A stretch of DNA of 54,223 nt from Trinickia soli (GTDB lineage: Bacteria; Pseudomonadota; Gammaproteobacteria; Burkholderiales; Burkholderiaceae). Each line of letters starts with the position of its first letter. Within the stretch, counting starts at the first letter, position 1. This document shows, in pieces, positions 10,136 through 28,111 of this stretch. The stretch covers positions 1 to 54,223 of the forward strand of contig NZ_PNYB01000034.1 of NCBI RefSeq assembly GCF_002879855.1, written 5' to 3'. A program made the position numbers and the translations under genes. The notes below the pieces were generated by a model. It was not told the DNA's origin. It did not search any database and saw only the letters and a list, made by a program, of their open reading frames with translations.

Positions 10136-10172
10136 TGTGCGCGCCGCACTCGCCATCCGTCTGGCACCACGC

Positions 10173-10585: not shown

Positions 10586-10608
10586 TTGCCGCGAGAGGCG
10601 GGCCGTGC

Positions 10609-10633: not shown

Positions 10634-10749
10634 ATTCGTCCGCAAGCGATGCGGCCTGCCTTTCTAGCATCGCAGATAACACCGAGAATCCGCGCTGCGA
10701 CGACACTTCGCATACGCAGCGGCCCAACCACACGCACGCCCGAGCCATC

Positions 10750-13128
10750 ATGGGAATCGAAACCGTCAGCCCGACTTCGCCGCCGCCCGACCTCACCCCG
10801 TCGGAGAGCGCCCAGGACGTCCGCCAGGACAGCCCGCGCGGGCAGCCGTCGAGTACACCGGGTGCGCCCCCCGGCGGCAGGCTCGAACATCTTTCGTCGC
10901 TACAGGCCGGCCGCCCCGCCAGCCAGGCCGGCCCCTCGCAAGTGCGCAAGCCGCAGGCCGATGCGCTGGCGAAGCTCGCTCGCCCGAGTTCATCGACGCC
11001 GCCGCCGCACCGGCAAACGGCGCTGCATGCCGCGCTCGGGCATGCGGTTGCCGCACCGGCCCATGCCGACACCGTGGCGGTGCGCCAGCGCGCGCAGGCT
11101 CTCGGCGATAAAGAAGCGCAGATCGCGGCGCTGAGGCGGCCGCCCGAGCCGGGGCAGGCCGAGGCAGCACAGCCGGCATCCGAGGCGGAAGTCGGCAAGC
11201 TCATCGACCTGCTCGAAGCGAAGCACGGGAGCGCGCAACAGGACGTGTCGGTGCTGGCGCAACAATGCAAGACGGCATTCGAGAAGATGGCGCGCCATGG
11301 CGTTGCGCTGGCGCGCAAGGTCGACCTGCTCGAAACATATCAGGCGAAGCTCGACGAAGCGGGCCCCGCCCCCGCTGCGCCGGCCCGGCCGCGTCCGGCT
11401 GCCGCTGCTGCCACCGTGCCCGATCGCATGAGCGCACTCGAGAGCGAAATCCGTTTGCTCAAGGGCAGCCGCAAAGCGGTCGCGCAAGAGGCGCTGGCGG
11501 TGGCGAACCGGGACAAGCTCAAGGAGCTCGGCACGTGGTCGCTGCTCGCCACAGCGTCGGACATCGCGAAAACCTCGTTCAAGTCGCTCTTCAGCAAGCA
11601 GGCGAACCCGGTCAACGAGCAACTCGAGCGCAGCATCGAAGCCTGGCTCGACAGTTGGACGCCCGAGCGCACCGGCCGACGAGACCGATCGGCAACGCCG
11701 GGCGAGCAATTCAAGCGCGCGGCCGACGACGCATTCCGGCGCATCGAAGACGCCGCCGGGGCGCACGCCAGTAGCACCGACGCGATGCAGGCATTGGCCG
11801 GCTTCTTCCACCTGATGTCTCAGCTCGAAGTGGAGCCGTTTGCGGACATGGCAAAGACGGGCGTCGTTCGTCAGATCGCCGTCTATCTGATCGGGGTCAA
11901 CCTCGAACACCAGTTTCCTTTCACAGCGCTGAAGCACATTCCCGGCTACCGGCCGTTCGTCGACGACAGAAGCGGGCTCGCGCAAACGGCAGCGACGCGG
12001 CTGCTGGAAGAAGCCGATGGCATGATGGCTGCGTTCGGCACCGGCCCTTCCCCGACCAAGGAGCTGCAGGTCCACGACCAAGTCTATCGCGGCCAGAGTG
12101 CGAGGCGGGCATTTCAGCAGTTCAAGCTGGTGGCCGAGCATCTCCGGACACACAAGGACGCCCTTACCAGCGTGCTGGCGAGCGCGCAACGGACCTTCGC
12201 CGAGGAACTGAAAGCCATCGATCCGGCCAAGGCGCAAAACGACGAAATCGACAAGATGGGCAGGCAAGTCGCGCCAAAACTGCCTCCCGTCTACGACGGC
12301 ATGATCCAGCAGCTCGGCGCCGAGCGCGCGCAGCTCGCGAAAACGCCGATGCGCCGTTCTTCGGCAGCGCCCGCGATCGACGAAACCGCTACGGCGAGCC
12401 GCGTGGGCCCCGATCGCGAAAGGCTCGAAATCGTCGTGAGCCGGCTGCAAGGCGCCGTGCTCGAATACGCGGACAAGCACCGCGAGACCTTCGAAATGCA
12501 TGCCACACTGAGCGCCAGGCACATGGATGCCTCCGACGAACTCGAGGGCATCGAGCGTCAACTCGCCGAGGCGCACGAGACCATGCAGGGCGTGCGCACG
12601 CACAAGCGCCGCCGCGCCGGCGAAAGCGCGGCGCGCGGCCAGCAAGCGGCCTCGCTCGAACGGGAGCTCGAGGCCGGCTTGCGCGAAGCGCTTGCGGACC
12701 CGGCACTCTCGCGCCTGATCTCGCCTACGGCGCTTGGACGTGCGCTGAAGATGCACGTCGCGCAGACGCCGGCGCAGATGCGCGCCCGCGTTCGCCACGA
12801 CAACCGGACCGCGCGCACGGGGTCCTTTCGCTCGGGCGTGGACCTGCTGCGCGTGATCGCGGAGATCGGCGAGCACGAACTCGGCAGGCCGGAGTCCGCC
12901 CTGCGCGCCACTACGCGGAAGGCGTTCGACGAAATCGCCGGCCGCCATCCGGGCGGGCGCATCAATGCGCTGTATGACCACGGCCGAACGATCGGTCATG
13001 GCGTGCGCGCAAGCGATGCGGCGGACGCGCCGCCTTCGCGCACCGGCACGAGCCAGTATGCGATCGATTGGGCCGAAGGCGAAGGCGCACGCATCAGCCA
13101 TCTGCATCCATGGGTCTCGCCCTATTGA
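10750..13128 (+). CDS. Putative type III effector with coiled coils (792 aa)
   Basis: ATG 10750 is the only reasonable start behind the PIP promoter at 10609-10633, although its ribosome site is weak. The N-terminal ~95 residues are Ser/Pro/Gln-rich (MGIETVSPTSPPPD). Residues about 95-260 and 540-640 look like coiled coils (heptad Leu/Ala with Glu/Lys/Arg). A basic cluster HKRRR near residue 617 is a possible nuclear signal. The middle (about 340-470) is a more conserved-looking globular segment containing Trp, Tyr and Phe clusters. No enzyme motif or named family is recognised. The next gene starts 48 bases later with no promoter signal, so they form an operon. Effector status is inferred from promoter and N-terminus. 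Confidence 0.72.
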   Translation: MGIETVSPTSPPPDLTPSESAQDVRQDSPRGQPSSTPGAPPGGRLEHLSSLQAGRPASQAGPSQVRKPQADALAKLARPSSSTPPPHRQTALHAALGHAVAAPAHADTVAVRQRAQALGDKEAQIAALRRPPEPGQAEAAQPASEAEVGKLIDLLEAKHGSAQQDVSVLAQQCKTAFEKMARHGVALARKVDLLETYQAKLDEAGPAPAAPARPRPAAAAATVPDRMSALESEIRLLKGSRKAVAQEALAVANRDKLKELGTWSLLATASDIAKTSFKSLFSKQANPVNEQLERSIEAWLDSWTPERTGRRDRSATPGEQFKRAADDAFRRIEDAAGAHASSTDAMQALAGFFHLMSQLEVEPFADMAKTGVVRQIAVYLIGVNLEHQFPFTALKHIPGYRPFVDDRSGLAQTAATRLLEEADGMMAAFGTGPSPTKELQVHDQVYRGQSARRAFQQFKLVAEHLRTHKDALTSVLASAQRTFAEELKAIDPAKAQNDEIDKMGRQVAPKLPPVYDGMIQQLGAERAQLAKTPMRRSSAAPAIDETATASRVGPDRERLEIVVSRLQGAVLEYADKHRETFEMHATLSARHMDASDELEGIERQLAEAHETMQGVRTHKRRRAGESAARGQQAASLERELEAGLREALADPALSRLISPTALGRALKMHVAQTPAQMRARVRHDNRTARTGSFRSGVDLLRVIAEIGEHELGRPESALRATTRKAFDEIAGRHPGGRINALYDHGRTIGHGVRASDAADAPPSRTGTSQYAIDWAEGEGARISHLHPWVSPY

Positions 13129-13176
13129 CGGGCCGGTTCGCCATGCCAGCCGAATGATCTAGCGCCCAATCCGCTC

Positions 13177-15579
13177 ATGGACGTATCCCATACTTCTTCG
13201 TCGCCGCCGCCCTCGCCCACGGCCGCCGCGTCCAGCCCGGCCGGGCCGCGCGGCACGGCCGACCTCACGCCGACACAGGCGACGTCGACTGACACTGCGT
13301 CGGCGCTTTCGACACCGCTCAGAGGCCTGTCGCTGAGGCAGCGGCCGGAGAGCGTGCCCACGGGGGCGCCGGCGCCGCGCGCTGCGCTGCCGGGCGCATC
13401 GGGCTCGCATCGCGGGATCGCGGCGAAGCGGGCCGGGGCGGCGCTCGTGAGGACTGTCCGGGACAAGCTGGCCGAGTGGCGCCCACTCGACGCCGAGGCG
13501 TCCGCCGTACACGGTGGCGCCAGCGACTGGGCGATACGCACGAGGATGGAAATCATCGAGGCCAGCCCGGCGCTGTTCCTGCACCGCGCCGGCCTGCCGC
13601 GCGCGGAAGCGATCCGGATGCTGAGCGACAGCGAGCTGGAGAAAATCTACGAAAGCGTGATGTCCTACGTGCACCCCGAGATGGTCCGCTTGTCGACGAC
13701 GGCCTACGGCGCGCAGTTGGCTCGGTTCAACGAGAGCCTCGCCGATCTTTGGCGCCACTTGCCGACGATCCGCGCGTCGGGCAGACAGCTCCCCGAGGAG
13801 GAGGTTGCCGCATTGCGCGTCGGCGCGAGCGCGTTGTCGGCGCACCGGGCACCGTTCGTCGAATATTGGGGCACGCAAGCTACCGCCGCTGCGCACCTGC
13901 TCGACATCGATGCAACGCTTGGAACGAATCTGCCGTACTTGCCGGCCGACGTCAGCACAGGTTACGAGGCCAACCGCCGCATCGATGCGGTGGTCGCCTT
14001 CTCGAGCCGGCTCAACGTGATGCGCGCCATTGCCGATAGCGAGACCATCCATCTGGCCGTGGCAAGCCTCTCCGTCGACGATTGCGCGGCCGAAAAACTG
14101 TATGGGGAGAGCGGCCTGCTCACGTTGATGGAGACGTTCAACTCCGACATCTTCCACGCCTATCAAACGGTCCGCGACGAATTGCTCGCGTGGCGGGCCA
14201 GAGAGCCACGCGAGCCGCTCGCCGAGAGTGCGTGCATCGTGCTCGACGGCTTCATCGCGCGGCTCACAGAGTTCGCGGCGGCGCTCGACGAGTCGTTGAC
14301 CGCCCATCGGAACGATCCCGATTTCGCGGCATTGCCTCTCGATGCGAGCGTCCCGCTCATCGAACTGTCCTGGCTGGTCGCGAACGACGCCCTGCGGCTG
14401 GCCGAACTCTCGCGTCCGCCGCAGCGGGCTCCCGCGCCCGACGCGCGCGCCGTCCCGGCCGCCCTCACACTCGACGCTGCCGCAGCGGCTTCGTCTTCGC
14501 AACCCGCCCGCGCAGGCAAAGGTAAAGGCAAAGCCAAAGGCAAAGGCAAGAAAGCCAAGGGCAAACCCGGCCGGGGCGGGCCCGCATCGCAGCCTGAGTC
14601 CGAATCGCGCGAGACGCTCGATGCGCGCGATCTGGGGGAGCAGGGACAGCGGCCGGCGCCGCACGCCTCGCGTGAGACCTCCGCAGCCCTTGACGCGGCC
14701 GGCCTGCAAGGTGGCCCCGAAGCGCCTCGCGCCGAGGGTCTCGCGCGTACCGAGCTCGGCACCTACATCCTCCTCAACAGCGAGCAGGCTCGAACGGACG
14801 CCTCTTTGGCGGCTGACTCCTCGGCGGCAGCCAGTCCGCCGGATCGGGGCGAAATCGCTGACCGGCTTGCACGCCTGGACGCGCTGCTCGCATTCGATCT
14901 GGCTGCCGAGCAGCGCAAGGTCTCTCAAGCGCGCTGGCAACTCTCGCCCGAAAACGCGGTATATGTCACCGAGAACGTGATCGAACGCCTCGCGAACGAA
15001 GCCGGTGCGATGCGCGCCTGTCTGGACGTGCTCGATGTGCCGCGCCAACGCTGGGGACTCGGCGCCGCCGAGGCAGACGATCTCCATCGCAAGATCGAGC
15101 AGCTTCGTCCGATGCGGGCCCAGGCGGAAGGCCTCACGCGCTCGCTGCGCGCACGCTTGCCGGAGGACACCGTCGAGCACATGAAACGCTATCCGTTTCC
15201 GATCCAGGAACATGTCGAACGCCTGTTCGCCGAACGCGCGTTGGCGCCGGCCGCCCCCACGCCGCTGAGCGGCGAGCCCGGCACGTTGTTCGAGCTCAGG
15301 CTCCAGCCGTCGGCCCTGCGCAACGGCGCCATGCCCCGCCCTATGTGGCTGCACATTCACACCCAGCGCGCCGTGCATGCCCGGGAACTGGCCACGCTAC
15401 CCGACACGCTCTTCGCCGTCGCTCACGTCAAATCCGACGAACAACGCGGCTACAACCGCGAATGGCAGGACGCGCGCGCGAGGCAAGGCCATGAGAAGGT
15501 CGTCGTCCACCGCGGCAAGATTGCCCCGGCGCTGTGCCGAGAACTGCTCGCGCGCACGACCGCCAGCGAACGCATTTGA
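13177..15579 (+). CDS. Putative type III effector with Lys/Gly-rich linker (800 aa)
   Basis: Second gene of the PIP-driven unit that begins at 10609. The N-terminal ~90 residues are Ser/Pro/Thr-rich (MDVSHTSSSPPPSPTAAASS). Two helical globular parts (about residues 95-415 and 540-800) flank a low-complexity linker with alternating Lys-Gly/Ala (residues ~447-469), which could bind nucleic acid or act as a nuclear signal. No catalytic signature is seen. The following small gene starts 18 bases after the stop, so cotranscription is likely. Function unknown; secretion inferred from context. Confidence 0.72.
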   Translation: MDVSHTSSSPPPSPTAAASSPAGPRGTADLTPTQATSTDTASALSTPLRGLSLRQRPESVPTGAPAPRAALPGASGSHRGIAAKRAGAALVRTVRDKLAEWRPLDAEASAVHGGASDWAIRTRMEIIEASPALFLHRAGLPRAEAIRMLSDSELEKIYESVMSYVHPEMVRLSTTAYGAQLARFNESLADLWRHLPTIRASGRQLPEEEVAALRVGASALSAHRAPFVEYWGTQATAAAHLLDIDATLGTNLPYLPADVSTGYEANRRIDAVVAFSSRLNVMRAIADSETIHLAVASLSVDDCAAEKLYGESGLLTLMETFNSDIFHAYQTVRDELLAWRAREPREPLAESACIVLDGFIARLTEFAAALDESLTAHRNDPDFAALPLDASVPLIELSWLVANDALRLAELSRPPQRAPAPDARAVPAALTLDAAAAASSSQPARAGKGKGKAKGKGKKAKGKPGRGGPASQPESESRETLDARDLGEQGQRPAPHASRETSAALDAAGLQGGPEAPRAEGLARTELGTYILLNSEQARTDASLAADSSAAASPPDRGEIADRLARLDALLAFDLAAEQRKVSQARWQLSPENAVYVTENVIERLANEAGAMRACLDVLDVPRQRWGLGAAEADDLHRKIEQLRPMRAQAEGLTRSLRARLPEDTVEHMKRYPFPIQEHVERLFAERALAPAAPTPLSGEPGTLFELRLQPSALRNGAMPRPMWLHIHTQRAVHARELATLPDTLFAVAHVKSDEQRGYNREWQDARARQGHEKVVVHRGKIAPALCRELLARTTASERI

Positions 15580-15597
15580 TCGAAGACGCTTCCGATT

Positions 15598-16146
15598 ATG
15601 AGCGACAGCAACCGCCCTTCGTCTTTGCCGCCGGATACGAAGCTCGGCTCCGCTGAGCCCGCGGGCAACGACGGGGCGGAGCATAGCCCCGTCGCTCGCC
15701 TGCCACCGTCGCGCGCAACGCCCGATCCGCTCGGCGACACCGCCAACCTCCACGAACAGCTTGCCGTCGGCTTCCGACTGGCGGTCAGCAAGGCCCGGCA
15801 GATCACCACGAGCCCGCCGCTGTCGTGGACACAGGCATTGCGCGCAACGCTCACGCGCGCCGGCCGGCGCAGCATGACGGACCGCCTGTTGGTGCAGCGC
15901 GCGGATCTCGTAGGGCTCGCGGCCGAATTGCGGCGCCTGCTCGATCAGAGCGAACCGAGCCGGCGCGGTGCGGCCCCGGAGGATAGGCAACAGCCGCAGC
16001 GCTCCGAGAAAGCGCTGCGCGCCGACCGTGCTCTCGCGCAGACGCGGCGCTGGCGTCCCGAAGCGCAACGCTGGCTCCAGGCGGTCTACTCGGAGTTGGC
16101 CGCCGTTGAACACAAGCTATCGAAGCGCTCGAAGCAGCGCCGGTGA
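15598..16146 (+). CDS. Small effector-type protein, paralogue of the next gene (182 aa)
   Basis: Starts 18 bases after the upstream effector. After a Ser/Pro-rich N-terminus of ~45 residues, the remaining ~135 residues align with the C-terminal part of the gene at 16372-17298: both have a DPL(G/D)D start, a (S/T)PxSW(T/G)(Q/T)AL block, a GLAxExxxLLxQSE block, a GAAP(E/Q)D turn, an EKAxRAD block, RPxAQR and a final LSK(R/Q)(S/L) tail. The shared domain is helical with no visible catalytic residues. It may be an effector, or a chaperone-like partner encoded with effectors. Part of the operon starting at 10609. Confidence 0.68.
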   Translation: MSDSNRPSSLPPDTKLGSAEPAGNDGAEHSPVARLPPSRATPDPLGDTANLHEQLAVGFRLAVSKARQITTSPPLSWTQALRATLTRAGRRSMTDRLLVQRADLVGLAAELRRLLDQSEPSRRGAAPEDRQQPQRSEKALRADRALAQTRRWRPEAQRWLQAVYSELAAVEHKLSKRSKQRR

Positions 16147-16264
16147 GCGGTGACCGGCGATCGATCGTCCTGGCTTGTTCGCCGCGCGCGGCTCGACGAG
16201 CCGTACATGACGGTCATGGCCATGCGGCTCGAAGCCGACGATTCGCGATAGGCGGGCTCCCCCC

Positions 16265-16289
16265 TTCGCCTCGTCGCTCGCCAGTTCGC
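16265..16289 (+). promoter_or_regulatory. PIP/hrpII box for the 308-aa effector-type gene
   Basis: Exact TTCGC-N15-TTCGC with a TACAGT -10 hexamer 30 bp downstream (16320-16325). It excludes starts before about 16332 and leaves ATG 16372. Confidence 0.85.
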
Positions 16290-16371
16290 GGCGTTGCGCC
16301 GCCGAACGCGCCGGCGCGCTACAGTCGAATCGATTCCCCTTGATCAGCTTTTGCCCAACGGACCTCCGACC

Positions 16372-17298
16372 ATGGCAGTGAATATCCCCACCCTTCCGCC
16401 TGTTCCCGCGAGTATCGACCTCGGCTTGCCCGAACCGTCGAAGGCACCTGCCGCCGGGCAAGGACTGCGCTCGAGTGCGTTGCCGAGCGCGGGCGGCCAG
16501 TTGGATAACCTGAAGACCCTCGGCCGCCGCGGCGGCTCCGGCTCGGCAAAGAGCGCGGCGAAATACGACGCCACACCCGAGCCGTCCACTGGGCAGGCGC
16601 GCGGCGACGGCAAAGCGGAACCAGACCGGCAGCCACCACCGCTGCCGCCCGCCGGTACGAGCGGCAACGGCCCGCGCTTGACGCGCGAGCCGTCGTTCAG
16701 CGATTGGATGACGAGGAGCGTCCCACGGGCAGCGCCCGAGCACGACGACTGGGCCGAACTCGACGACATCTTCCGGCGTCAGCCCGACGCCAACCAGGGC
16801 GGCATGGATACGAGCAAACAGAGTCTCATCGATACGCCGCAGGCACCGTTGCGCAAGAAGCCCGCGCGCACGGCCACCGATCCGCTCGACGACATCGTGG
16901 CCCACCACACGAAGGTCGCCGCTGGATTGCAACGAGCGATCAACACGGCGAATCGAATCGCCTCGGGCCCGTCTCCGATATCGTGGGGCACGGCGTTGCT
17001 CTCCACGTTCACGCAAAAGGGCAAGCGCAGAGTGGCGAACGCCCTGTCCGCCCGATACGCGGAGTTGAAGGGACTCGCGGGCGAGATGGAGCAACTGCTG
17101 CAGCAAAGCGAGAGCAACAAGCTCGGGGCGGCCCCGCAGGACAAGCTGCGGAGCTACGAAAAGGCGATACGCGCTGACTGGGCCGCGTTCCAGACGCAGC
17201 GCGTGCGCCCACAAGCGCAACGCTTGCTGAGCGCCATTCAAGCCGAGCTTTCATCGCTGCAAAGCGAATTGGCCAAGCTGTCGAAACAGTTGCGATAG
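16372..17298 (+). CDS. Effector-type protein with own PIP promoter (308 aa)
   Basis: Start ATG 16372 is set by the PIP-box promoter at 16265-16289. The N-terminal half is disordered-looking, rich in Pro, Gly, Ser and Arg. Residues 15-20 read IDLGLP, an LxLxL-like pattern similar to the IDLNLP of the 691-aa effector. From about residue 170 the protein is the paralogue of the 182-aa gene just upstream (shared DPLDD...LSKQL domain, helical). The tandem duplication with different N-terminal parts is typical of effector evolution by domain shuffling. No enzyme motif is seen. Confidence 0.72.
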   Translation: MAVNIPTLPPVPASIDLGLPEPSKAPAAGQGLRSSALPSAGGQLDNLKTLGRRGGSGSAKSAAKYDATPEPSTGQARGDGKAEPDRQPPPLPPAGTSGNGPRLTREPSFSDWMTRSVPRAAPEHDDWAELDDIFRRQPDANQGGMDTSKQSLIDTPQAPLRKKPARTATDPLDDIVAHHTKVAAGLQRAINTANRIASGPSPISWGTALLSTFTQKGKRRVANALSARYAELKGLAGEMEQLLQQSESNKLGAAPQDKLRSYEKAIRADWAAFQTQRVRPQAQRLLSAIQAELSSLQSELAKLSKQLR

Positions 17299-18150: not shown

Positions 18151-18957
18151 TTACCGCTGTCCCGCCAGTGCGCGCATCTGCGGGCCGATGTCGGTCAGTG
18201 CGAGTTGGCTGTGTACTTCGTCGATGAACACGCCGATGAGCAGTGCCAGCAGCAATACCGCAAGCAACCCCTTCACGGCATGGCTCAGCGTGCCGAAGTC
18301 GAGCCGCTGCGCGCTCTTGCCGATGAACCCGAAGCCGATGTCGACGAGCACCAGGATCGCCGTGATCGGCGCCGCGATCTTCGCGACGATCTGCATCAGC
18401 GAGTCCGTCTCGTGCATCGCGAAGGTCTCGAGGATGTTCGAAGGCACTGGCGTCGCGCTCGCCAGCGGCCACCAGTGGTAGGACTCGTAGACGGCACCGA
18501 GCAGGAACGTCATGCCGCCGAGCAGCCAGAACGCCGTCATGACGCAGTTCGAAAGGAGGGTCGACGTAATCGAGGTCTGCTGTCCGTTGGTCGGGTTGCT
18601 CATCTGCACGTTGTTGTAGCCCGCCACGTCATCGAGATAAGCGCCGATACTGTCCGCGGCCCAGAAGATCTGCGACGCCGCGTAGCCGATCACGAGGCCG
18701 ATGACCGCCTCCTTCGCCACCATCGCCACGAGCACCGCACCATGAAGCTGCGGGATCAACGGTGTCTGTCCGTAAGCGATGAAGGTGCTCCAGAGCATGA
18801 CGGTGGCGTTGCGCGTGACGCCTTGCATCATCGTGTCGCCCGTTGGCGGAAACATGTTCATGACGACCATCAGACGCGTGCTGCAAAGCGCCACCAGCGT
18901 CAGGAAGTCCAGCACCGAGGCGTTCAGCCCGGGCAGTTGCAAGAACATTTGCGTCAT
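18151..18957 (-). CDS. hrcT: T3SS export apparatus inner-membrane protein SctT/HrcT
   Basis: A 268-residue SpaR/YscT/HrcT-family protein with about six hydrophobic segments. It forms part of the SctRST export gate in the inner membrane. Conserved-looking stretches include RLMVVMNMFP near residue 30, KEAVIGLVIGYAASQIFW and the C-terminal SQLALTDIGPQMRALAGQR. ATG 18957 lies 19 bases after the stop of the pyruvyl transferase-like gene, so it is in the same transcript. It is normally adjacent to hrpB7 in this T3SS family; here two extra genes separate them. Confidence 0.92.
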   Translation of the reverse strand: MTQMFLQLPGLNASVLDFLTLVALCSTRLMVVMNMFPPTGDTMMQGVTRNATVMLWSTFIAYGQTPLIPQLHGAVLVAMVAKEAVIGLVIGYAASQIFWAADSIGAYLDDVAGYNNVQMSNPTNGQQTSITSTLLSNCVMTAFWLLGGMTFLLGAVYESYHWWPLASATPVPSNILETFAMHETDSLMQIVAKIAAPITAILVLVDIGFGFIGKSAQRLDFGTLSHAVKGLLAVLLLALLIGVFIDEVHSQLALTDIGPQMRALAGQR

Positions 18958-18976: not shown

Positions 18977-20434
18977 TCATCCGAAATGAATTGCCTCGAC
19001 CCACGCGGCGAGGTTCCTGCCCATCTGGTCGAACACGGCGCGCTGGGCGCCGGCATAGCGCTCGCAGGCCGCAACGATGCGCGCCCGCTCGCGGGCGTCG
19101 TCGAGCGTGGCGATGCGTTCGAGCGCGCGCGCGGTCGAGCCGTCGTCATCGCAGCGCCCACGCCAGTCGCCCAGGCCCACCTCGTCGAGCAGCCGGTCGA
19201 TGCGCTCGTCCATCGAAAGCCCGAAAACCGGCACGCCATGCGAAACGGCCAGTACAGCCGCGTGATAGCGCGTCGTCACCGCGCAGTCCGCATGCGCGAC
19301 CGTGGTGGCCACGGCTTCGAGGTCCGCCTCTCCGCGCGCCACGATGCGCACCGCGAACGGCAACCGTGCCGCGAGATCGTGGCAAGCCGCCTCGTCGAGC
19401 CGCTCCATGCCGACGATCACCGGTTCGTAGCCGCGCTCGCGCAAGGCTGTGCCGAGGGCGGCGAAGCGACTCAGATAGGACTCGTAGGCGCACTCGCGCG
19501 CCGCATTCCAGCTATGAAAGTGCAGCGAGCCATAACGCAGCGGCGATTCCCTGCCGGCCGCATCGAGCGCTCTCGCCCGGCGCGCATCGGCGTACACTGG
19601 CCACCAGAACGGGTTGTTCACGCAGAGCACTGCAACGCGCCCGCATGCCGTCTCCCGCTCGCGAGCCCGCCAGTGCCACGCGGCGTCCGCGCCGCGCTGG
19701 CCCGACACGCCCAGTTCGGCCAACTGCGTACACGCTGCGCTGTTGCGGCAGATGACAAGGCCGCGCTCCGCGTTGCGCCGCACGAACACTTGCAGCGACG
19801 CACTCATCGCGCCGCTGTCGACGCCATAGGAAACGGCCGCACATCCCTGTGCGTGCGCAAGCGCGACGCCGCCGATCAGCATGCCCGCCAGCGAATCGGA
19901 GAACTTCGATGTGTAAGTGGAGCCTTCGACGTTGAGGACGAGGTCAGCCTCGGCCACGGCTGCCGCGAGCACATCGGGCAGGTACGGCAGCGGCCAATCG
20001 AGCTTTTTCACGCGCGCGAGCACGCGATGATCGAACAGGGCACCCAGTGCGAGAAGTTTGATGCGCGGGACCCGGTGTGCGAACACGTCCTGGATCTGCG
20101 CGATCGTCTCGATCGTGCGCAGATCGGCGCCGGTATTGCCGGCCCCGCTGTAGCTCAACAGCAGCACGCGCAGCGCGTCATCGGTGGTGCGTCGCGGTCG
20201 CGCGGCATGCCGGCTGGCGGCATCGATGCGGCACTGCATGTCGGCGAGGAACACTTCGTCGGGTGCTTCGGCATGCGCATAGCGTTCGAGCGCCGCGCAC
20301 GACGCCGCGACGGGATCGGCCGCCGCGCCCGCCACGCGCAGCGGCGATGCGCCCGCGCGCTCCTGCTCGACGTACGGGAAGCGAGGCGCCTCGTTGGAAA
20401 GCGGCGTACCAAGCGATCGGAGAAGGCGTCCCAT
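18977..20434 (-). CDS. Polysaccharide pyruvyl transferase-family protein inside the hrp operon
   Basis: A 485-residue protein. Its core (from about residue 85) matches the polysaccharide pyruvyl transferase fold: VLLLSYSGAGNTGADLRTIE at the start, a middle ADLVLNVEGSTY, and the C-terminal ADCAVTTRYHAAVLAVSHGVPVFGLSMDERI block that resembles the donor-binding part. The first ~85 residues are an extra region without recognised motif. Family members transfer pyruvyl ketals from PEP to sugars (CsaB, WcaK type). Its ATG overlaps the stop of the MenD-like gene (ATGA at 20434), implying translational coupling. No glycan gene cluster is near. The placement between hrpB7 and hrcT is unusual; substrate unknown. 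Confidence 0.82.
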   Translation of the reverse strand: MGRLLRSLGTPLSNEAPRFPYVEQERAGASPLRVAGAAADPVAASCAALERYAHAEAPDEVFLADMQCRIDAASRHAARPRRTTDDALRVLLLSYSGAGNTGADLRTIETIAQIQDVFAHRVPRIKLLALGALFDHRVLARVKKLDWPLPYLPDVLAAAVAEADLVLNVEGSTYTSKFSDSLAGMLIGGVALAHAQGCAAVSYGVDSGAMSASLQVFVRRNAERGLVICRNSAACTQLAELGVSGQRGADAAWHWRARERETACGRVAVLCVNNPFWWPVYADARRARALDAAGRESPLRYGSLHFHSWNAARECAYESYLSRFAALGTALRERGYEPVIVGMERLDEAACHDLAARLPFAVRIVARGEADLEAVATTVAHADCAVTTRYHAAVLAVSHGVPVFGLSMDERIDRLLDEVGLGDWRGRCDDDGSTARALERIATLDDARERARIVAACERYAGAQRAVFDQMGRNLAAWVEAIHFG

Positions 20435-22368
20435 CACGTCGCTCCCAAAGCCAGCGCGAGCGTGTGCATCTGCGCGATACCCGAATGCGGCGGAACGACG
20501 AGTTCGACCAACGTCACGCCGGCGTGACCGCGCGCCGCAGCGAGTGCCTCGTCGAGCGCCACGCGCGAGCAGGCCCGTCGATGGCGCAGCCCGAACCCCT
20601 GTGCGAGCGCCGCGCAGTCGAAGCCATAGCGGTTGCGGATCGTGCGCGCATAGCCGGGATCGGCCGCGAGCGGCAGGTAGTCGAAGATCGCCCCGCCCCC
20701 GTTGTTGAGGATGCACACGCACGCCGGCACATCGACACGCTGTGCGCAGGCGAGCGCCGCGAGGTCGTGCAGCAGCGCCTGATCGCCCACGAGCAGCAGA
20801 CCCGGCTCGCGGCGCGCAAGCGCCTCGCCGAGGAACGTCGAGAGCGTGCCGTCGATGCCGCTCACGCCGCGGCTGACGTAGAGATCCTGCGGACTCGTGC
20901 GAACGTCATAGCCGATATCGGCGTGCCGCACCGACATCGAGTTGCCGACGTGAACGAACGCGAACCCCTCGGCATCGAGCAGGCGATGCGTGGCCGACAC
21001 TTCGCCCCACGCGAGCTGCGCGACGCAGGCATGGCGTGCGCGCATGCCATGGGCCGCCCTGTCCGCCCAGCGCGTGCGCCATGCTTCGCCCGCCACGCCG
21101 ACGTGGGTGCAAAGTTGCTCACCGAGCCGGCGCAGCGCGGGCGCATCGACGCCGCTCAGCAGATCGCGAGGATCGAGTACCGGGTGCAGATAATCGCGTT
21201 CGTCGGCGCAGGCGGCAATTTTCACGACAGGCACGTCAGCGTTCGCCTGCAGGAATTCGTGAAGCGTCGGCAACACGGGCGCCAGCCCGAACCGCACGAT
21301 CAGTTCGCAACGCGCATCGGACATCGGCGCGCGCGATGCGAGCGCGTCGAACGGATTGAGGATCAGCGCGCCCGCAGCCGGCGCTGTCTGCGCGCCGTGA
21401 GCGGACGGATGGGCACGCAACCCACTGCCGACATCGGCCAGCACCGGATAACCCGTGGCCGCCGCAAACGCCAGAATGGCGTCGCGCGTCGCGCCAGGCT
21501 CGGCCCCCGCAACGATGAGTCCGTTCAACGTGCCCGCGGCCAACGTTTCGCTCGGCTCGCCATTCGCGCGCCGTTGCGCACGCAATTGGCCGATACGCGC
21601 GGCCAGGCGTGAAGCGTCGTCGCTGCTCCAGGCATCGCTCGTCGCATTGGCCGCGGTGTGCGCATCCGCGCGCGCGTCGCACTCGCCATCGAGCGGCGCA
21701 CGCAGGGCCGCAACCGTCGCGCCGCAGACGGGCAACGTTTCGAGCGCATCGTACACGCCAGCGAACGGCACGTTCAGATGGACCGGACCGGGTGCCGCGC
21801 GGCGCGCGGACGTGTGCCCGCAACCGTTCGGCTCGGGGCTGACACTCCCTGTCATCTGCCTCAGCGCCGCATCGAGCGTCAGCCGCGCGCGCATGACCGC
21901 CTCGGGCGCATCGACGGGGTCGTCGAGATCGGCCTGCGCGCGCGTCGCCGCGGCCGTCGCGCCGAGATGGTCGGCCATCTGTCCGAAGCCGGTGCCGCGC
22001 AGATGACGCGGCCGGTCGCAACTGACGACCACGAGCGGAATACCGCTCGCCTCGGCTTCGACAAGTGCGGGCAGCAGATTGGCCACCGCGGAGCCCGACG
22101 TGGTCACGACCGCCACGGGCGCACCGTGTGCCTTGGCCATACCGAGGGCGGCGAACGCGCCACTGCGCTCGTCGGTGCTCACGAGCGCCACGTTCATCCG
22201 CACATCGCGCTCCATGGCCAGACACATCGCGCTCGCGCGGCCGCCGGGACACAGCACGGCATTGCGCACGCCATGCGCGAGGAGCGCCTCGATCACGCAC
22301 GCGACCCATACACCGTTGAGCGACGGGGCCTCCACCGCTGCCGCAAGCGCGCCATCGTACCTGTTCAT
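20434..22368 (-). CDS. MenD-like thiamine-diphosphate enzyme inside the hrp operon
   Basis: A 644-residue ThDP-dependent enzyme of the MenD (SEPHCHC synthase) type. Visible hallmarks: CPGGRAS near residue 40, DERSGAFAALGMAKA with the ThDP-activating Glu (E67), SDRPRHLRGTG-like CDRPRHLRGTGFGQ, and the C-terminal cofactor site GDQALLHDLAAL...NNGGGAIFDYLP. In menaquinone synthesis MenD joins isochorismate and 2-oxoglutarate, but Burkholderiaceae use ubiquinone and no other men gene is seen. It therefore probably catalyses a related carboligation for another product. ATG 22368 overlaps the hrpB7 stop (ATGA), and its own stop overlaps the next start, so it is firmly part of the T3SS operon. Confidence 0.85.
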   Translation of the reverse strand: MNRYDGALAAAVEAPSLNGVWVACVIEALLAHGVRNAVLCPGGRASAMCLAMERDVRMNVALVSTDERSGAFAALGMAKAHGAPVAVVTTSGSAVANLLPALVEAEASGIPLVVVSCDRPRHLRGTGFGQMADHLGATAAATRAQADLDDPVDAPEAVMRARLTLDAALRQMTGSVSPEPNGCGHTSARRAAPGPVHLNVPFAGVYDALETLPVCGATVAALRAPLDGECDARADAHTAANATSDAWSSDDASRLAARIGQLRAQRRANGEPSETLAAGTLNGLIVAGAEPGATRDAILAFAAATGYPVLADVGSGLRAHPSAHGAQTAPAAGALILNPFDALASRAPMSDARCELIVRFGLAPVLPTLHEFLQANADVPVVKIAACADERDYLHPVLDPRDLLSGVDAPALRRLGEQLCTHVGVAGEAWRTRWADRAAHGMRARHACVAQLAWGEVSATHRLLDAEGFAFVHVGNSMSVRHADIGYDVRTSPQDLYVSRGVSGIDGTLSTFLGEALARREPGLLLVGDQALLHDLAALACAQRVDVPACVCILNNGGGAIFDYLPLAADPGYARTIRNRYGFDCAALAQGFGLRHRRACSRVALDEALAAARGHAGVTLVELVVPPHSGIAQMHTLALALGAT

Positions 22369-22889
22369 ACCGTATCTCCTGTCTCGATCGCAGTTGCGCG
22401 CAGCCGAACCGCCCGCGCAACCATGATTTCCTCGATCTCGTCGTCCTGCCGATCCTCTTCCTCGCGCTCCGCCTCGGCTTTGAGCTTCTCGATACGGCGC
22501 TCGATGACGTCGATCTGCCCTTCGTTGCGCACGATCTGCGCGCGCGTATCGGCGATCTCTTCGCACCGACGCGCGACATCGGCCTCGGCCCGGCGCAGCT
22601 CGGCCTCGGCGGCCGTCACGCGCTCGACGAGGACCACGCGGTACTCGCGCAACTGGTTGAAATGCGGCAGGGACATCGCCTCCTGGCCGGTGAGCATCGC
22701 CTCGATCCGGTGGTCGCAGCCGTTCAGCACCCCATTCGCCTCCTCGCGCGCCGCCTGCTTCTCGCGCGCGAGGCCCTCGGCCTGCTCGAGCTCCGTGCGC
22801 TGCGCGGCAAGCGTTTCGCGCAGCGCACGGTCGAGGCGGCGCCGCTTGTCGAGCATCAGGCCGAAGGCCGACAGTCGTCTGTCTTTCAT
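22365..22889 (-). CDS. hrpB7: T3SS ATPase stalk protein SctO/HrpB7
   Basis: A 174-residue, almost fully alpha-helical coiled-coil protein with dense Glu/Arg/Lys heptads and no Pro-rich parts, as in the YscO/FliJ/HrpB7 family that works with the ATPase in the cytoplasmic sorting complex. Starts 45 bases after hrcN and matches the Xanthomonas order hrcN-hrpB7. Its last codons overlap the MenD-like gene start. Confidence 0.85.
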   Translation of the reverse strand: MKDRRLSAFGLMLDKRRRLDRALRETLAAQRTELEQAEGLAREKQAAREEANGVLNGCDHRIEAMLTGQEAMSLPHFNQLREYRVVLVERVTAAEAELRRAEADVARRCEEIADTRAQIVRNEGQIDVIERRIEKLKAEAEREEEDRQDDEIEEIMVARAVRLRATAIETGDTV

Positions 22890-22934: not shown

Positions 22935-24296
22935 TCAGTTCGCGAGCGCCGCGAGTGCGGCAGCCGTCTCGCGCGGCGACGAGAACTGGTCGGTGCGCTG
23001 ACAGAGAAAAGCGCGGATCGCGTCGATGCGCGCAACGGCCTCGTCGGCGAGCGGGTCGCCGCCCGGCCGGTATTCGCCGATCTGCAGCAGCGTCTCGATT
23101 TCCTTGTGTTTGGCGAGCAGCCGCCGCACGTGGCCTGCCCGATCCATGTGCTCGCGCGTCGTGATGAGCGGCATCACGCGCGACAAGCTGCCGAGCACGT
23201 CGATGGCCGGATACTGGTTGCGCGCGGCAATCTCGCGCGAAAGGACCATGTGGCCGTCGAGCAGGCCCCGCACTTCCTCCGCGACCGGATCGCCGCCCGT
23301 CTCGTCCTCGGCCAGCACGGTATAGAGCGCGGTGATGGCGCCGTGCTCGGACAATCCCGCCCGCTCGACCAGCCGCGGCAACTCGGCAAAGACCGAAGGC
23401 GGGAACCCGCGCCGCGCGGGCGGCTCGCCGACGGCCAGGCCAATCTCGCGCTGCGCGCGCGCAAAGCGCGTCAGCGAATCCATCATCAGCAGCACGCTCA
23501 TCCCGCGGTCGCGGAAATATTCGGCCACGGCGGTCGCCACGAACGCTGCCTTGGCACGCTCGATCGACGACCGGTCCGACGTCGCGCACACCACGACCGA
23601 GCGCGCCATGCCTTCCTCGCCAAGAATGTGTTCGACGAACTCGCGCACCTCACGGCCGCGTTCGCCGATCAGCGCGATCACGTTGATGTCGCACTGCGCG
23701 CCGCGCGCGAACATCCCCATCAACGTGCTCTTGCCGACGCCGGCCGGCGCGAAAATGCCCACGCGCTGGCCAAGGCCCAGCGTCATCAGGCCGTCGACGA
23801 TGCGCACGCCCGTCGGCAGGTCGCGGTCGATGATCGGGCGGCTCATCGGGGTGGGCGGATCGGCGAAGATCGGGCGATGCTCGGTGCACCCGAGCGGCCC
23901 GCCGCCGTCGATCGGCGTGCCGAGGCTGTCGATCGTGCGCCCGAGCAGTGCATCGCCCACCGGGACCGAAAGCGGCCGCCCGAGGCCGATCACCTGCGTC
24001 GAGCGCGAGATGTCGGCCACGCGGCCGAACGGCGAGAGCACAGCGACGTTGCGCGAGAAACCGACCACCTCCGCGTGCTGCAGCAGTTGTCCGTTCGGGG
24101 CGCGCAGCTCGCACAATTCGCCGAGCCGCACTTCGAGCCCCGTCACGCGCATCAGCGTGCCCACGACTTCCAGGACTTTGCCGCGCGTCTCGACGCGCGA
24201 GCCACCGCGCAATTCCTGACCGATTGCGTCGGTAAGCGCCGAGAGCGCCCCGAAGCCCGCCGGCATGGGCAGACCGTCAAGCGTGTCGTCCATCAT
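22935..24296 (-). CDS. hrcN: T3SS ATPase SctN/HrcN
   Basis: A 453-residue F1-like ATPase that unfolds and detaches substrates from chaperones at the export gate. Walker A is AGVGKST (residues 185-191), followed by the IGERGREV motif and Walker [18 protein letters not shown]. The [25 protein letters not shown] stretch is the standard family signature. ATG 24296 overlaps the hrcL stop as ATGA; the second ATG at 24293 is the alternative. Confidence 0.96.
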
Positions 24297-25426
24297 GAAC
24301 GGGCTCCGGCGTGATGATCGGGGTGTGCGATGCGGTCGTATTCGGGGTCGCCGAGCCACGGGATCGCGTACGGGTCATGCTGAGGCTCGCTGTCGCCGGC
24401 CGCCCCCTCGCTTTGCACTTGCGCATCGGATACGGCCTCCGCCTCAGTCCCCTCTTCGGGGTCGTCCTGATCTTGCGGTTGGCCCGCGCCTGAAAGGGCT
24501 GCGCGGCGGTCCGCTTCGAATTCGTCGTCAGGATCGGCTTCATCGTCGGTTGCAGTGTCGGATCGACGCGCGGCGTCATTGCCGACTTCCTGCGCGGCAT
24601 CCTCGGCGTGTCGCGCCGCGCTGCCGCCAAGGGCTTCGAGATCCACGCCAGCATCGACCAGATCGGCATCGTTGGCGCCAGCGCCGGCCGTGCGCTGCAC
24701 GGCGCGCGTCACAGCCGCGCGCAACGCAGCCAATTGCGTGTCGAGGCTCGCGTCCACCGTGCCGAGATCGGACTCGCACAAGCAGGCTCCACGCGCCACC
24801 GCACGATCGGCCATGACCGTGACGGCGACGCCGTGACCGCGCTCGCGCCAGATGGCGGCCAGCCGGTCGAACTCGGCGACGGCTGCGGGTTCGTCGTCGG
24901 GATGCACGCGCACCCGCAAATAGGTGCTGCCCTCCACGAGGCGCTCGACCACCTCGGCCGAGCGGGCAAAGAGCGCCGACACGTCGACATTGCGCACGAT
25001 CTGCTCGGTCGCATCGACCACGAGTTCGACGATGCGCTCGCGCAACAGCGATTGCACGCGACGCTGGCCTGCGGCCGAGCGCGCGCAGCGTTCGTACCAT
25101 TCGGCCAGCCCGCGCTCGCGCCCCGCCTCGTAGCCGCGCTCGGACGCCGTTTCGTACTCGTGTTGAGCCTGCGCGCGCACGCGCTCGGCCTCGATCTCGG
25201 CCTGGGTCAATAGCGCGTCGGCGCGCGCCTGCGCATCGGCCAATATGGCCTCGCGCTGGCGCTCGATCTCGTGTGCCGCTGCATCGAGGTCGACCACCAT
25301 CGCGAACGCCTCGCGGCGCACGACATCGTCGTCGCTTTCGAGACCGACGCCGCACGCGGGCAGATCAGGCGCGATCTCGTCGATGGAATGTGGGTCGCCG
25401 TTGCGGGCGCGAAGCCAAAGGATCAT
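24293..25426 (-). CDS. hrcL: T3SS ATPase regulator/stator SctL/HrcL (HrpB5) with long acidic tail
   Basis: The first ~255 residues form a normal HrcL/FliH-type protein: an N-terminal [11 protein letters not shown] start, a charged Ala-rich coiled coil (about 50-110), and the C-terminal globular part with [13 protein letters not shown] and [20 protein letters not shown]. It binds and restrains HrcN and links it to the HrcQ pods. The full length is 377 residues because of a ~115-residue acidic, Asp/Glu/Gln-rich extension absent from standard members of about 200-260 residues. The start overlaps the hrpB4 stop (ATGA at 25426). Confidence 0.9.
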
Positions 25427-26115
25427 GACCGCTCCGGAAAAAGGTGAGGTAAAAGCTCGAGCGTCCGGACCGAGCCGTCGGCATCGATCGTCCGATCGAG
25501 GCCAGCCAGCCAGTCGGGCTCGGACCATTCGCGCGGCAACGCGAGCCGCACCAGATCGGCCGGGCCGTCGACAGGCAAGACGCCATCGCGGCGAAACAGG
25601 CACCAGCCCTCCCATGCCACGGCCAGCGCGGTGAGCGTATCGACTGCCGGCATACCGGCGCGGCGCAGCGGTTCGATCTGGGGACCGTCCGTCACGGCTT
25701 GCATCTGACGCAGCAAGCCGACCGCACCCCGGGTGCCGACGAGCTGCGCACAATGGTCGCGGCTTACGCGACCGACCAGACGCCGCAATTCGTTGCGGCG
25801 AAACCAGAGCGAGCGCACGCGCAACATCGTCAGGGCCTGCTCTACGCTCAGCATGGCCAACGAGCCTGTTGCCGGATCGTCGGCGGTACAGGCGTCGAGC
25901 CGCGGCAAACCGAGCCCGATCGCATGGGCGAGCGCCCGCGCACCCTCCTCGCGGCGCAGGCCCGGCACGAGCCGCTCAGCCCAGGCCGGCAGCCACGAGC
26001 GGTCGATCCAGGCAAGCAGGTCGCGGCGGTTCGCCTCGAAGCGCGCCAGCACCTGAGCGATGCGACGCACGGGCGTGTCGAGTCCTTCATGCATGCGGCT
26101 CGGTGCAGTGCTCAT
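25423..26115 (-). CDS. hrpB4: T3SS sorting-platform protein SctK/HrpB4
   Basis: A 230-residue HrpB4-like protein placed between hrcJ and hrcL as in Xanthomonas. It has Trp/Leu-rich stretches (WIDRSWLPAWAERL, LRVRSLWFRRNELRRLVG) typical of SctK proteins that join the HrcQ pods to the inner ring. ATG 26115 is preferred since GGAG lies 7 bases upstream; ATG 26127 is possible. Assignment rests on position and pattern, as this family diverges fast. Confidence 0.8.
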   Translation of the reverse strand: MSTAPSRMHEGLDTPVRRIAQVLARFEANRRDLLAWIDRSWLPAWAERLVPGLRREEGARALAHAIGLGLPRLDACTADDPATGSLAMLSVEQALTMLRVRSLWFRRNELRRLVGRVSRDHCAQLVGTRGAVGLLRQMQAVTDGPQIEPLRRAGMPAVDTLTALAVAWEGWCLFRRDGVLPVDGPADLVRLALPREWSEPDWLAGLDRTIDADGSVRTLELLPHLFPERS

Positions 26116-26131
26116 GGTCCGCTCCATCGGC

Positions 26132-26959
26132 TCAGTGCGCCGTCATCGTCGGCTCGACGGGCGTGGGCGCGGGTGCGCCGTCCGCCGCCGCACCGCGCTT
26201 GCCGAAGAAGCGGCCGATCAGGCCGCCCGCACGTCCCGCCGAGGCCTTGCGTGCAAGCACCACATAGAGCACGGCTGCGCAGCAGAAGAAAATCAGCAGA
26301 CCGATGCCGACGATGAGCCCAAGGACCCCACGCCGGGCTTTGGTCGCGAGGACCACCGGGTCGGCCGGCATGCTCGTCACCGCAACCTGATCGTAGGACA
26401 ACCCCTCGACGCTGTGCGCGACAAGGTTCTTGATCTGCTGCGTGAGCGTGGCCAGATCCGCGTTCGGCCGATATTTGATGAAGACCGAGGCCGATGCGGG
26501 CTTGACGATCGAGGCCAGCGGGTCGTTGTTCGGCAACACGATCTGCACCCGTGCGACGATCACGCCGTCGATCTTGGAAAGCGTGTCCGAAAGCTCCTGT
26601 TGGACGCCGTAGATGAAGCGCACGCGCTCCTCGGTCGGGGTCGATACGAGCCCGCTCTGTTTGAAGAGATCGCCCAGGTTGTCGTACTTGCGCCGCGGCA
26701 GGCCGGCTGCCCCGAGCACCTGCATGGCGCGCGCAAACTGGGCGTTGTCCACGGCGACGTCCCAGGTCTTGCCGCCATCCTGCGTCGATTTCTGCGCATC
26801 GACGCCGTTTTCGAGCAGCACCGCCACCATCTCGTTGCTGTCGTGCTCAGTGAGGTTGCCATATAGCTCGCTGTTGCAGCCCGCGAGCAGCAGCGCGAGC
26901 GCCAGGCTCGCCTGGAGCGCGGCACGGCGCAGCAGCGAGCGGGAAAAGGTCTTGCGCAT
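26132..26959 (-). CDS. hrcJ: T3SS inner-membrane ring lipoprotein SctJ/HrcJ
   Basis: A 275-residue YscJ/PrgK-family protein of the periplasmic inner ring. It has a lipoprotein signal peptide ending LLLAGC, the family segment [19 protein letters not shown], a ring-building domain with [14 protein letters not shown], and a C-terminal transmembrane helix ([25 protein letters not shown]). ATG 26959 is preferred; a GTG nine bases upstream is in frame. Confidence 0.96.
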
Positions 26960-26975
26960 GATGGTCACCGCGGCG

Positions 26976-27371
26976 TCACTGGTTTTTCATCAGCGTGTCG
27001 AGCGCGTCCTTGGACGACGTCACGACCGCCAGCTTGGTCTGCAGGTCGACCTGCATGCCGGCCGTCTCGAGCTGCACCTGGACGGTGGCCGCGGTCAGTT
27101 GCGGCATCGACATGCGCTCGGCGTTGCTGACCATGTAGAGCATGTCGTCCGAGACGGTCTTGAAAGCCGCGTCCTGCGAGCGCGCAAGCCGCGAGACCAG
27201 CGCGCCGGTGTCGGTCTCGGGCGGGCGCGGCGGCGTCATGCGGCTCGTCTCGGCCATCGCGCGGAAGGCGTCCGCCCCGCGCGCCGGGCCGCCCTGCGCC
27301 GCCCCCCCGCCGTCGAAAGCGTGCGAGAGCACTTGGCTGAACTGCGAAAACGAAATCGGTGCTGCACTCAT
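26976..27371 (-). CDS. hrpB2: T3SS inner rod protein SctI/HrpB2
   Basis: A 131-residue protein, matching the ~130 residues of HrpB2. The N-terminus is Ser/Gly/Ala-rich and the C-terminal half is helical, ending in the family-like [22 protein letters not shown] stretch. HrpB2 is an early secreted rod component whose export is controlled by the HrcU cytoplasmic domain and HpaP. It lies between hrpB1 and hrcJ. Confidence 0.9.
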
Positions 27372-27403
27372 GATGTTTCTCCCGAACCGCAATGGCGCAT
27401 GAA

Positions 27404-27988
27404 TCACAGGCGCATGTACTGGCCGCCCATCACCAGCGACGGATCGATCTGCGTCGGCACCGGCACTGCTCCCTCGGCTTGAGCCGCCTGGCGCCGCGCA
27501 CGGTCCTCCTTGAGCGCCACGATCGAAGCCGGCATCTCGAACTGCCCCGAGCGCTTGGCCGACTCGATCGCGCTGAGCAGGTCCTGGCGCGCGATGACGG
27601 TGCGCACCATCAGCACCGTGTCCTCGTCGGTCTCCTCGTCGAGGATCTGCCGCGCCTCGCCCTCCCAGTTCGGATCGTTGTTCATCGCCTTGCAGACCAC
27701 CAGCAGCGCGCGGCTGCTCGGCAAGCACTGCTCCTGATCCACCAGGCGCTGGAAGGTGTGGCTCGCGCCGATGAAGTCCTGCCGCGCGACGTTGAGCAGC
27801 CCCTCGAACATATCGAGCTCGGGCGTGTGGTGGCACAGCACCGTCAGCGCGTCATAGATATAGGCCATGTCGTCGTGATCGATGCGGCAGTTCGGGAAGT
27901 TATCGCGCATGGCCACGCCGAGCACTTCCAGCATGATGTCGACGACATGGTCATCGAAACGCATGTACTCGTCGTTCGTTTCGCTCAT
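27404..27988 (-). CDS. hrpB1: T3SS periplasmic protein HrpB1
   Basis: A 194-residue HrpB1/HrpK-family protein and first gene of the hrpB operon. Core features are the LEVLGVAMRDNFP start, CHHTPELDMFEGLLNVARQDFIGA, and the CKAMNNDPNWEGEARQIL block, which give a helical TPR-like pattern. In Xanthomonas HrpB1 is periplasmic and binds peptidoglycan. A GAGGAA ribosome site precedes ATG 27988. The C-terminal ~40 residues go beyond the usual length. Transcription is from the PIP box at 28087-28111. Confidence 0.9.
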   Translation of the reverse strand: MSETNDEYMRFDDHVVDIMLEVLGVAMRDNFPNCRIDHDDMAYIYDALTVLCHHTPELDMFEGLLNVARQDFIGASHTFQRLVDQEQCLPSSRALLVVCKAMNNDPNWEGEARQILDEETDEDTVLMVRTVIARQDLLSAIESAKRSGQFEMPASIVALKEDRARRQAAQAEGAVPVPTQIDPSLVMGGQYMRL

Positions 27989-28086: not shown

Positions 28087-28111
28087 GCGAAGCAAATAGC
28101 GCATTTGCGAA
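28087..28111 (-). promoter_or_regulatory. PIP/hrpII box for the hrpB operon
   Basis: Exact TTCGC-N15-TTCGC on the minus strand (28111-28107 and 28091-28087). TACTTT -10 hexamer 30 bp downstream at 28056-28051. The box includes an inverted repeat, GCAAAT-N5-ATTTGC. It should control hrpB1 through hrcT and probably the gene at 17314. Confidence 0.9.

Follow-up and report, generated by a model that had tools for sequence, protein, structure and literature searches.

The described systems closest to the locus considered here are of two kinds. For the megapolipeptins of Paraburkholderia megapolitana, a pyruvyl transferase and a 2-succinyl-5-enolpyruvyl-6-hydroxy-3-cyclohexene-1-carboxylate (SEPHCHC) synthase are proposed to build a 4-oxoheptanedioic group (PMC13291983, PMC12964715), and DxpH, which is related to the PvlT protein discussed below, is reported to transfer pyruvate from phosphoenolpyruvate (PEP) in vitro (PMC12964715). 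The second kind comprises small molecules made under regulators of type III secretion systems (T3SSs): the 3-hydroxy-oxindole HDF is under HrpB in Ralstonia (PMC10653808, PMC5357869), with hdfA called merely a dioxygenase in PMC5357869, and phevamine A is under HrpL in Pseudomonas (PMC8303149). The effectors of environmental Burkholderia sensu lato strains are described as still elusive in a survey of T3SSs (PMC8565462). Here we report that a menD-like gene and pvlT, a gene of the PS_pyruv_trans family, lie inside the hrp operon on a 54,223-nucleotide stretch of Trinickia soli DNA (contig NZ_PNYB01000034.1 of assembly GCF_002879855.1; hereafter the window). On balance, we lean towards MenD and PvlT being tailoring enzymes of a specialised-metabolite pathway in the hrp regulon, the regulation, substrate, product and host role of which we infer.

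Gene calls give a minus-strand run from 27988 to 18151 in the order hrpB1-hrpB2-hrcJ-hrpB4-hrcL-hrcN-hrpB7-menD-pvlT-hrcT. An earlier reading of the window from its letters (the sequence-only reading) had placed two intact enzyme genes between hrpB7 and hrcT. Both menD (20434–22368, 644 residues) and pvlT (18977–20434, 485 residues counted from the ATG) are indeed open there, and the families proposed for them stand, with MenD scoring 266 bits against the TIGR00173 menD model (cut-off 244.2) and PvlT 39.3 bits against PF04230 (PS_pyruv_trans; cut-off 25.3). The upstream gene hrpB7 (22365–22889) scores 101.5 bits against PF09486 (cut-off 29.7) but only 92.5 bits against TIGR02559 (cut-off 134.4). 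On the other side, hrcT (SctT; 18151–18957; TIGR01401, 188 bits, cut-off 163.05) starts 19 bases past the PvlT stop, as had been noted. Of the two ATGA overlaps claimed by the same reading, that of menD with the hrpB7 stop (22368) is present, but the menD–pvlT junction is TGATG, with the ATG at 20434 and one shared base, or GTGA if the start is the GTG at 20437. The remainder of the run consists of hrcN (SctN ATPase; 22935–24296; TIGR02546, 623.1 bits in a scan from an upstream start, 22935–24359) and, upstream on the same strand (24293–27988), hrcJ, identified by the TIGR02544 profile, together with four genes which we take from gene order to be hrcL, hrpB4, hrpB2 and hrpB1.

The interruption of hrpB7-hrcT is unusual. 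In 19 of the 21 loci carrying both genes they are directly coupled (the hrcT match begins −4 to 69 bases past the hrpB7 stop), 16 of the 19 having ATGA at the hrpB7 stop, which bears out the expectation that adjacency is the normal state. The gene-order search that had been suggested found hrpB7-menD-pvlT-hrcT, with ∼3.4 kb between hrpB7 and hrcT, in the window and in Trinickia sp. Y13 (L012) and at no other of the 21 loci. This strain is the nearest named relative, with a MenD that is 92% identical, and comparison of the window with it gives ratios of nonsynonymous to synonymous substitution rates (dN/dS) of 0.18 for menD, 0.34 for pvlT, 0.085 for hrcT and 0.154 for hrpB7. From the first two values, menD and pvlT are under purifying selection and are not chance open reading frames (ORFs). 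Genes were called with a simple codon-usage script; those that it missed in two stretches (L066 and L074) were read by tblastn.

In a tree of 32 MenD sequences, in which long branches are present, 23 hrp-type proteins and two of megapolipeptin type stand together against seven others with support of 100/100. The hrp-type proteins form one group (99/99), which is sister to the two megapolipeptin-type MenDs. Besides E. coli, the seven others represent two Burkholderiales belonging to other families (G056 and G050) and four plasmid records. Two of the plasmid genes have annotated men genes around them, one is on an unannotated record, and for the fourth (Azospirillum) a stretch of 13.7 kb shows no further men gene; this outgroup may include non-menaquinone enzymes. 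All 25 hrp- and megapolipeptin-type proteins keep the catalytic thiamine diphosphate (ThDP) glutamate E55 as well as S391, R395 and R413 (E. coli numbering), the residues that hold the 2-oxoglutarate carboxylate in MenD (PMC12312563). Position 292, K or R in all seven others, is P or Q in all 25, and S32 is replaced by G or A in all 25, with A present in two of the other MenDs as well. R33, R107 and Q118, on the isochorismate side, are kept. Since the 2-oxoglutarate residues are kept, positions 292 and 32 altered and these three retained, the protein has the donor side of a MenD and a partly changed acceptor side; a first impression that the isochorismate site had been lost was softened by the retention of the three residues. 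The window protein therefore resembles menaquinone MenD (SEPHCHC synthase) in profile match, catalytic glutamate and 2-oxoglutarate residues, and differs from it in its separate clade, in the lack of a basic residue 292, in the substitution of S32 and in coming from a genome where neither menB nor isochorismate synthase is matched above the cut-off. Some relatives fall at or below the TIGR00173 cut-off, for example L016, which has a truncated start (219.3 bits). In a plasmid collection MenD matched 38 records, all at less than 60% identity.

The second enzyme, PvlT, has an R389-Y-H391 motif, R and H being invariant in 18 sequences, which, judged as a motif only, may correspond to the PEP-binding R-x-H pair R306/H308 of CsaB (PMC10435577). 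Against the CsaB model itself it scores 52.9 bits, far under the cut-off of 213.1. No match at E ≤ 1 was found by phmmer among solved structures, a profile reaching yeast pyruvyl transferase only at E 0.41, and the plasmid collection gave no match. At the MenD loci that we read, pvlT adjoins menD in 22 of 23, and also in L113 and L115. A profile search found PvlT in 25 of 144 Paraburkholderia genomes, two of which (G689 and G718) score far below the other 23. In these two, PvlT is next to MenD and beside ketoacyl-synthase/FabA, acyl-carrier-protein-bearing and Cupin_8 genes (identified by profiles for G718), a gene content from which we read the loci as probable megapolipeptin clusters. The Trinickia genes share with the megapolipeptin pair the juxtaposition of PvlT and MenD, the sister MenD clade and a Cupin_8 gene in the set. 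They differ in lying in an hrp operon, in having Rieske oxygenase and APS (adenosine 5′-phosphosulfate) kinase genes in the wider set with no polyunsaturated fatty acid synthase, polyketide synthase (PKS) or nonribosomal peptide synthetase (NRPS) recognised, and in sequence, the proteins being only 33–34% identical. DxpH and ChtnH of the dioxanopeptins and chitinimines of Chitinimonas koreensis (PMC13291983, PMC12964715) offer a further likeness, namely a PS_pyruv_trans enzyme in a natural-product pathway. A PvlT relative with 36% identity in a genome of another family (G611) lies among genes that by eye are polyketide/NRPS-like and in a cluster that looks to be of the DxpH/ChtnH type, but no MenD partner was called beside it.

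The association of this MenD with hrp genes recurs across genomes. In 398 Burkholderiaceae genomes, an even sample of a larger group, with at least 44% identity defining the hrp-type MenD, E ≤ 1e-60 defining hrcT and the lists of hrcT-, menD- and Rieske-positive genomes compiled by hand, MenD was found in 18 genomes and hrcT in 71, including 17 of the 18 MenD carriers; the sole carrier without an hrcT match (G071) is 70% complete. The two genes share a contig in 15 genomes, within 14 kb in 12 and at 39–53 kb in three. A VanA-type Rieske oxygenase (at least 58% identical to that of Paraburkholderia) is present in all 18 MenD genomes and in seven others; 44 of the 398 genomes give a Rieske match at E ≤ 1e-70, the next best below the 58% group standing at 49%. 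The 23 loci read comprise the window, L012–L027, L063, L065, L066, L067, L072 and L116 (L071 was omitted as a copy of L020). Among them, Rieske occurs in 19 and an hrp gene within the fetched stretch in 21; these hrp genes are structural in 16 and an hrpB-type regulator only in five (L025, L027, L065, L066 and L116). The names hrpB and hrpG are given from family (AraC helix-turn-helix and response regulator, respectively) and position, no specific profile having matched.

MenD and PvlT belong to a larger, dispersed gene set that includes the Rieske oxygenase, a Cupin_8 oxygenase and APS kinase and, elsewhere, TylF and a luciferase-like oxygenase. In the window, the Cupin_8 (JmjC-like, Fe/2-oxoglutarate) oxygenase is encoded at 942–2096 on the minus strand (PF13621, 85.5 bits); it keeps H273-x-D275 and resembles JMJD5 and FIH among solved structures. 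APS kinase is encoded at 2344–2952 on the plus strand (PF01583, 193.5 bits; TIGR00455, 199.9 bits, cut-off 138.7). The Rieske gene of this genome is elsewhere (C5), with GNAT and hrpB-type genes nearby; among solved structures, the Rieske protein is closest to dicamba O-demethylase, and the plasmid collection gave 574 Rieske records, all below 60% identity. For the luciferase-like enzyme the genome gave only a weak match (36% over 103 residues), and for TylF none, in a search run without a positive control. Ten Paraburkholderia loci (L013–L022) carry hrcT, hrpB, hrcC, hrpG (opposite), Rieske, menD, pvlT and the luciferase-like oxygenase, nine of them with TylF and the Cupin_8 family of the window as well; this layout was taken from five gene lists and, for the remaining five, from family counts. 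L023 and L024 have a similar layout with a DUF3455 gene and no luciferase-like gene. In L025 and L027 hrpB-GNAT-luciferase-like faces pvlT-menD-Rieske, in L026 menD-pvlT faces hrcT, and in L065 and L066 APS kinase-Rieske-menD-pvlT is near hrpB-GNAT. A DUF3455 gene recurs near Rieske-menD-pvlT or in the same T3SS region in L013–L024, L060, L064, L069, L071 and L072.

Control by the hrp regulon is predicted from plant-inducible promoter (PIP) boxes. The pattern published in PMC8565462 was scanned over 34 stretches and gave 124 boxes in 720,243 bases. In a spacing control, with one duplicate stretch dropped and the −10 spacing loosened to 29–33, 56 boxes had a −10 element at the true spacing, compared with 0, 4, 4, 2, 5, 2, 8 and 2 at eight false spacings. 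In the zone 60–260 bp before genes of eight enzyme classes, nine boxes with a −10 element were found versus none at the false spacings, and 13 versus none or one when the −10 element was not required. On the minus strand, a box with a matched −10 element at 28087–28111, 123 bp before hrpB1, is the presumed promoter of the hrpB1–hrcT run, menD and pvlT included. Two further boxes of this kind, at 2166–2190 (minus strand) and 2250–2274 (plus strand), each lie 94 bp before a gene, Cupin_8 and APS kinase respectively. A biosynthetic operon under a T3SS master regulator would be a likeness to HDF and phevamine A. The phevamine A genes belong to other enzyme families (PMC8303149), and neither pathway is described, in the parts of PMC10653808, PMC5357869 and PMC8303149 that bear on it, as lying inside a structural operon.

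These elements can be arranged into a working scheme. An HrpB/HrpX-type regulator would act on the PIP box before hrpB1, so that menD and pvlT would be transcribed with the injectisome. Expression of the Cupin_8 oxygenase and the APS kinase, and of the Rieske oxygenase encoded elsewhere in the genome, would be turned on from other PIP boxes. The Rieske or the Cupin_8 oxygenase may expose a hydroxyl on a scaffold, to which PvlT would move a C3 pyruvyl or enolpyruvyl unit from PEP; MenD would then decarboxylate 2-oxoglutarate and add the ThDP-borne C4 succinyl carbanion to the C3 unit. The outcome would be a 4-oxoheptanedioic (C7) decoration on a putative scaffold, as proposed for the homologous megapolipeptin pair, and such a unit would fit, because four carbons from decarboxylated 2-oxoglutarate and three from PEP make seven. 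The small molecule would be made during effector injection and would probably act on the host. That the dispersed hrp-controlled pathway (Rieske, Cupin_8, APS kinase and MenD/PvlT) makes a 4-oxoheptanedioate-bearing small molecule without PKS or NRPS, acting on the host beside effectors, is put forward tentatively, as a proposal somewhat more apt to fail than to hold.

Several results weigh against the assignment to an hrp-controlled metabolite pathway. The co-occurrence of menD and hrcT (Fisher p = 5e-13) is uncorrected for relatedness, and in two genomes (G083 and G303) the genes are on different contigs. Two MenD loci, L063 and L067, have no recognised hrp gene near menD; in the genome of the former, pvlT and Rieske sit in the T3SS locus (L064), and the contig of the latter is 8.5 kb long. 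Rieske-pvlT occurs without a nearby menD in L061, L062 and L117 and apart from menD in L064, and Rieske occurs without either gene in L060 and L069. Because Rieske is found without menD, menD is the least conserved member and is not essential to the set. Perfect PIP boxes with a −10 element precede only six of 26 Rieske genes (L025, L027, L057 of the own genome, L059, L067 and L068), none of the ten Rieske genes from Paraburkholderia is preceded by a perfect box, and the boxes at the nine TylF genes of Paraburkholderia loci lack a matched −10 element. The window Cupin_8 protein is only a distant relative of the megapolipeptin type, and we recognised no PKS, NRPS or fatty-acid synthase gene among the window ORFs, not all of which were profiled; the sole called ORF of more than 1000 residues (3138–8030) has no Pfam match. 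With R33, R107 and Q118 kept, the acceptor could still resemble isochorismate. Of the loci with Rieske next to pvlT, L064 and L117 have the two beside T3SS genes, while in L061 and L062 their neighbours resemble sugar-transport genes and the 20 kb read contained no recognised hrp gene.

Other explanations of the pair were weighed against the same observations. Members of the family Burkholderiaceae normally use ubiquinone, and the sequence-only reading had expected a product other than menaquinone. A role of MenD in menaquinone or another respiratory quinone has the TIGR00173 match in its favour, and we regard it as barely credible: the genome has a single MenD match at E ≤ 1e-5, and searches of it returned 14 matches to the MenB family and two to isochorismate synthase, none over the curated cut-off (menA, menC, menE and menH were not searched). 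The better isochorismate synthase match (179.7 bits versus 224.75) falls in a called ORF of 497 residues, which we take from its neighbours to be TrpE. The clade apart from the seven other MenDs, and the absence of this MenD type from 380 of the 398 family genomes, point the same way, and the menaquinone role was rejected. The two observations named beforehand as contrary to the expectation, a full menaquinone pathway using this gene as its sole menD and absence of the pair from relatives with mutated active sites, were not made. In plants, salicylate is made via isochorismate, and MenD might act on isochorismate, perhaps that of a plant host, lowering the salicylate precursor as a host-directed enzyme outside any pathway. 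The MenD fold and 2-oxoglutarate side, the kept R33, R107 and Q118 and a genome with no isochorismate synthase over cut-off would suit such a role; only ∼13 residues precede the part aligned to the first MenD helix, which would leave little room for an injection signal, PvlT and Rieske are conserved partners and the basic residue 292 is lost, so that we hold it to be very improbable.

The link of the pair to the injectisome, which had been proposed as a T3SS-linked metabolite or glycan modification, is well supported by the linkage across genomes and by the PIP boxes; the glycan half of that suggestion fares less well. The pair could modify a surface glycan (exopolysaccharide, capsule or lipopolysaccharide) made with the T3SS pilus, with a pyruvate ketal added by PvlT in the manner of CsaB and another decoration supplied by MenD, and the best studied members of PF04230 do pyruvylate saccharides (PMC10435577). 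The CsaB score is far under its cut-off, no glycan export or glycosyltransferase set was recognised beside the pair in the loci read, where not every ORF was profiled, and the relatives outside the group sit in polyketide/lipid-type clusters, with a precedent for a ThDP partner. As these nearest relatives lie in such clusters, glycan modification is less likely than specialised-metabolite tailoring, and we consider it unlikely. More doubtful still is that menD and pvlT merely travel with a mobile hrp island and are functionally unconnected to secretion. The gene set does differ between genomes, and T3SS regions are reported to be often exchanged (PMC8565462). The dN/dS values of both genes, the recurrence of the same association in differing arrangements, PIP boxes at separate loci and an insertion that preserves tight gene coupling argue against mere carriage.

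The genes themselves have probably moved. The window menD groups with the Paraburkholderia loci (100/99), as does pvlT (97 in a quick tree), while hrcT groups with another Trinickia genome (G003; 98) and Rieske with Trinickia and G071 (86, weak). On the simplest reading, these discordant groupings suggest a Paraburkholderia-like source for menD-pvlT, which seems to have landed again in an hrp operon. No sign of recent transfer of the pair was seen in base composition.

Further PIP boxes with −10 elements in the window lie before hrcQ (31962) and an ORF at 35233 (box at 35153), and those at 3009, 10173, 10609 and 16265 precede four plus-strand ORFs (3138–8030, 10385–10585, 10750–13128 and 16372–17298). 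Long ORFs are also present at 8060–10135 and 13177–15579. The long ORFs of this region have no Pfam match, save a sub-threshold RNAse_A_bac hit in 10750–13128 (18.3 bits, cut-off 27); by position only, the ORFs behind PIP boxes from 3138 to 17298 are candidates for secreted proteins. Near the Rieske gene of the same genome (C5, L057), an ORF of 1790 residues (2077–7449, minus strand) has a PIP box with a −10 element at 7732, and a GGDEF gene lies between it and Rieske. The minus strand of the window also encodes a lytic-transglycosylase-like protein (41895–42572; IagB model, 106.6 bits, below the cut-off of 208), with a PIP box lacking a −10 element at 42673, and, near T3SS genes, a subtilase-family protease (37420–38739; PF00082, 101.8 bits).

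T3SS-regulated small molecules are known, as is the MenD/PvlT pair in megapolipeptins. Among the literature matches listed, none describes a T3SS cluster with MenD, Rieske or pyruvyl-transferase genes, and neither the combination of the two nor the placement of putatively metabolic enzymes inside an injectisome structural operon appeared in those matches. In term searches, menaquinone, Rieske, pyruvyl and monooxygenase were all absent from the main text of the T3SS survey PMC8565462, and the searched text of a P. tropica apoplast paper had no MenD-, Rieske- or pyruvyl-type terms. The locus takes the MenD/pyruvyl-transferase pair beyond assembly-line lipids. Studies of T3SSs look chiefly for protein effectors; if the proposal is true, many Paraburkholderia and Trinickia would have in their T3SS regulon a combined protein-plus-metabolite kit, and these bacteria may interact with their hosts partly by chemical means.

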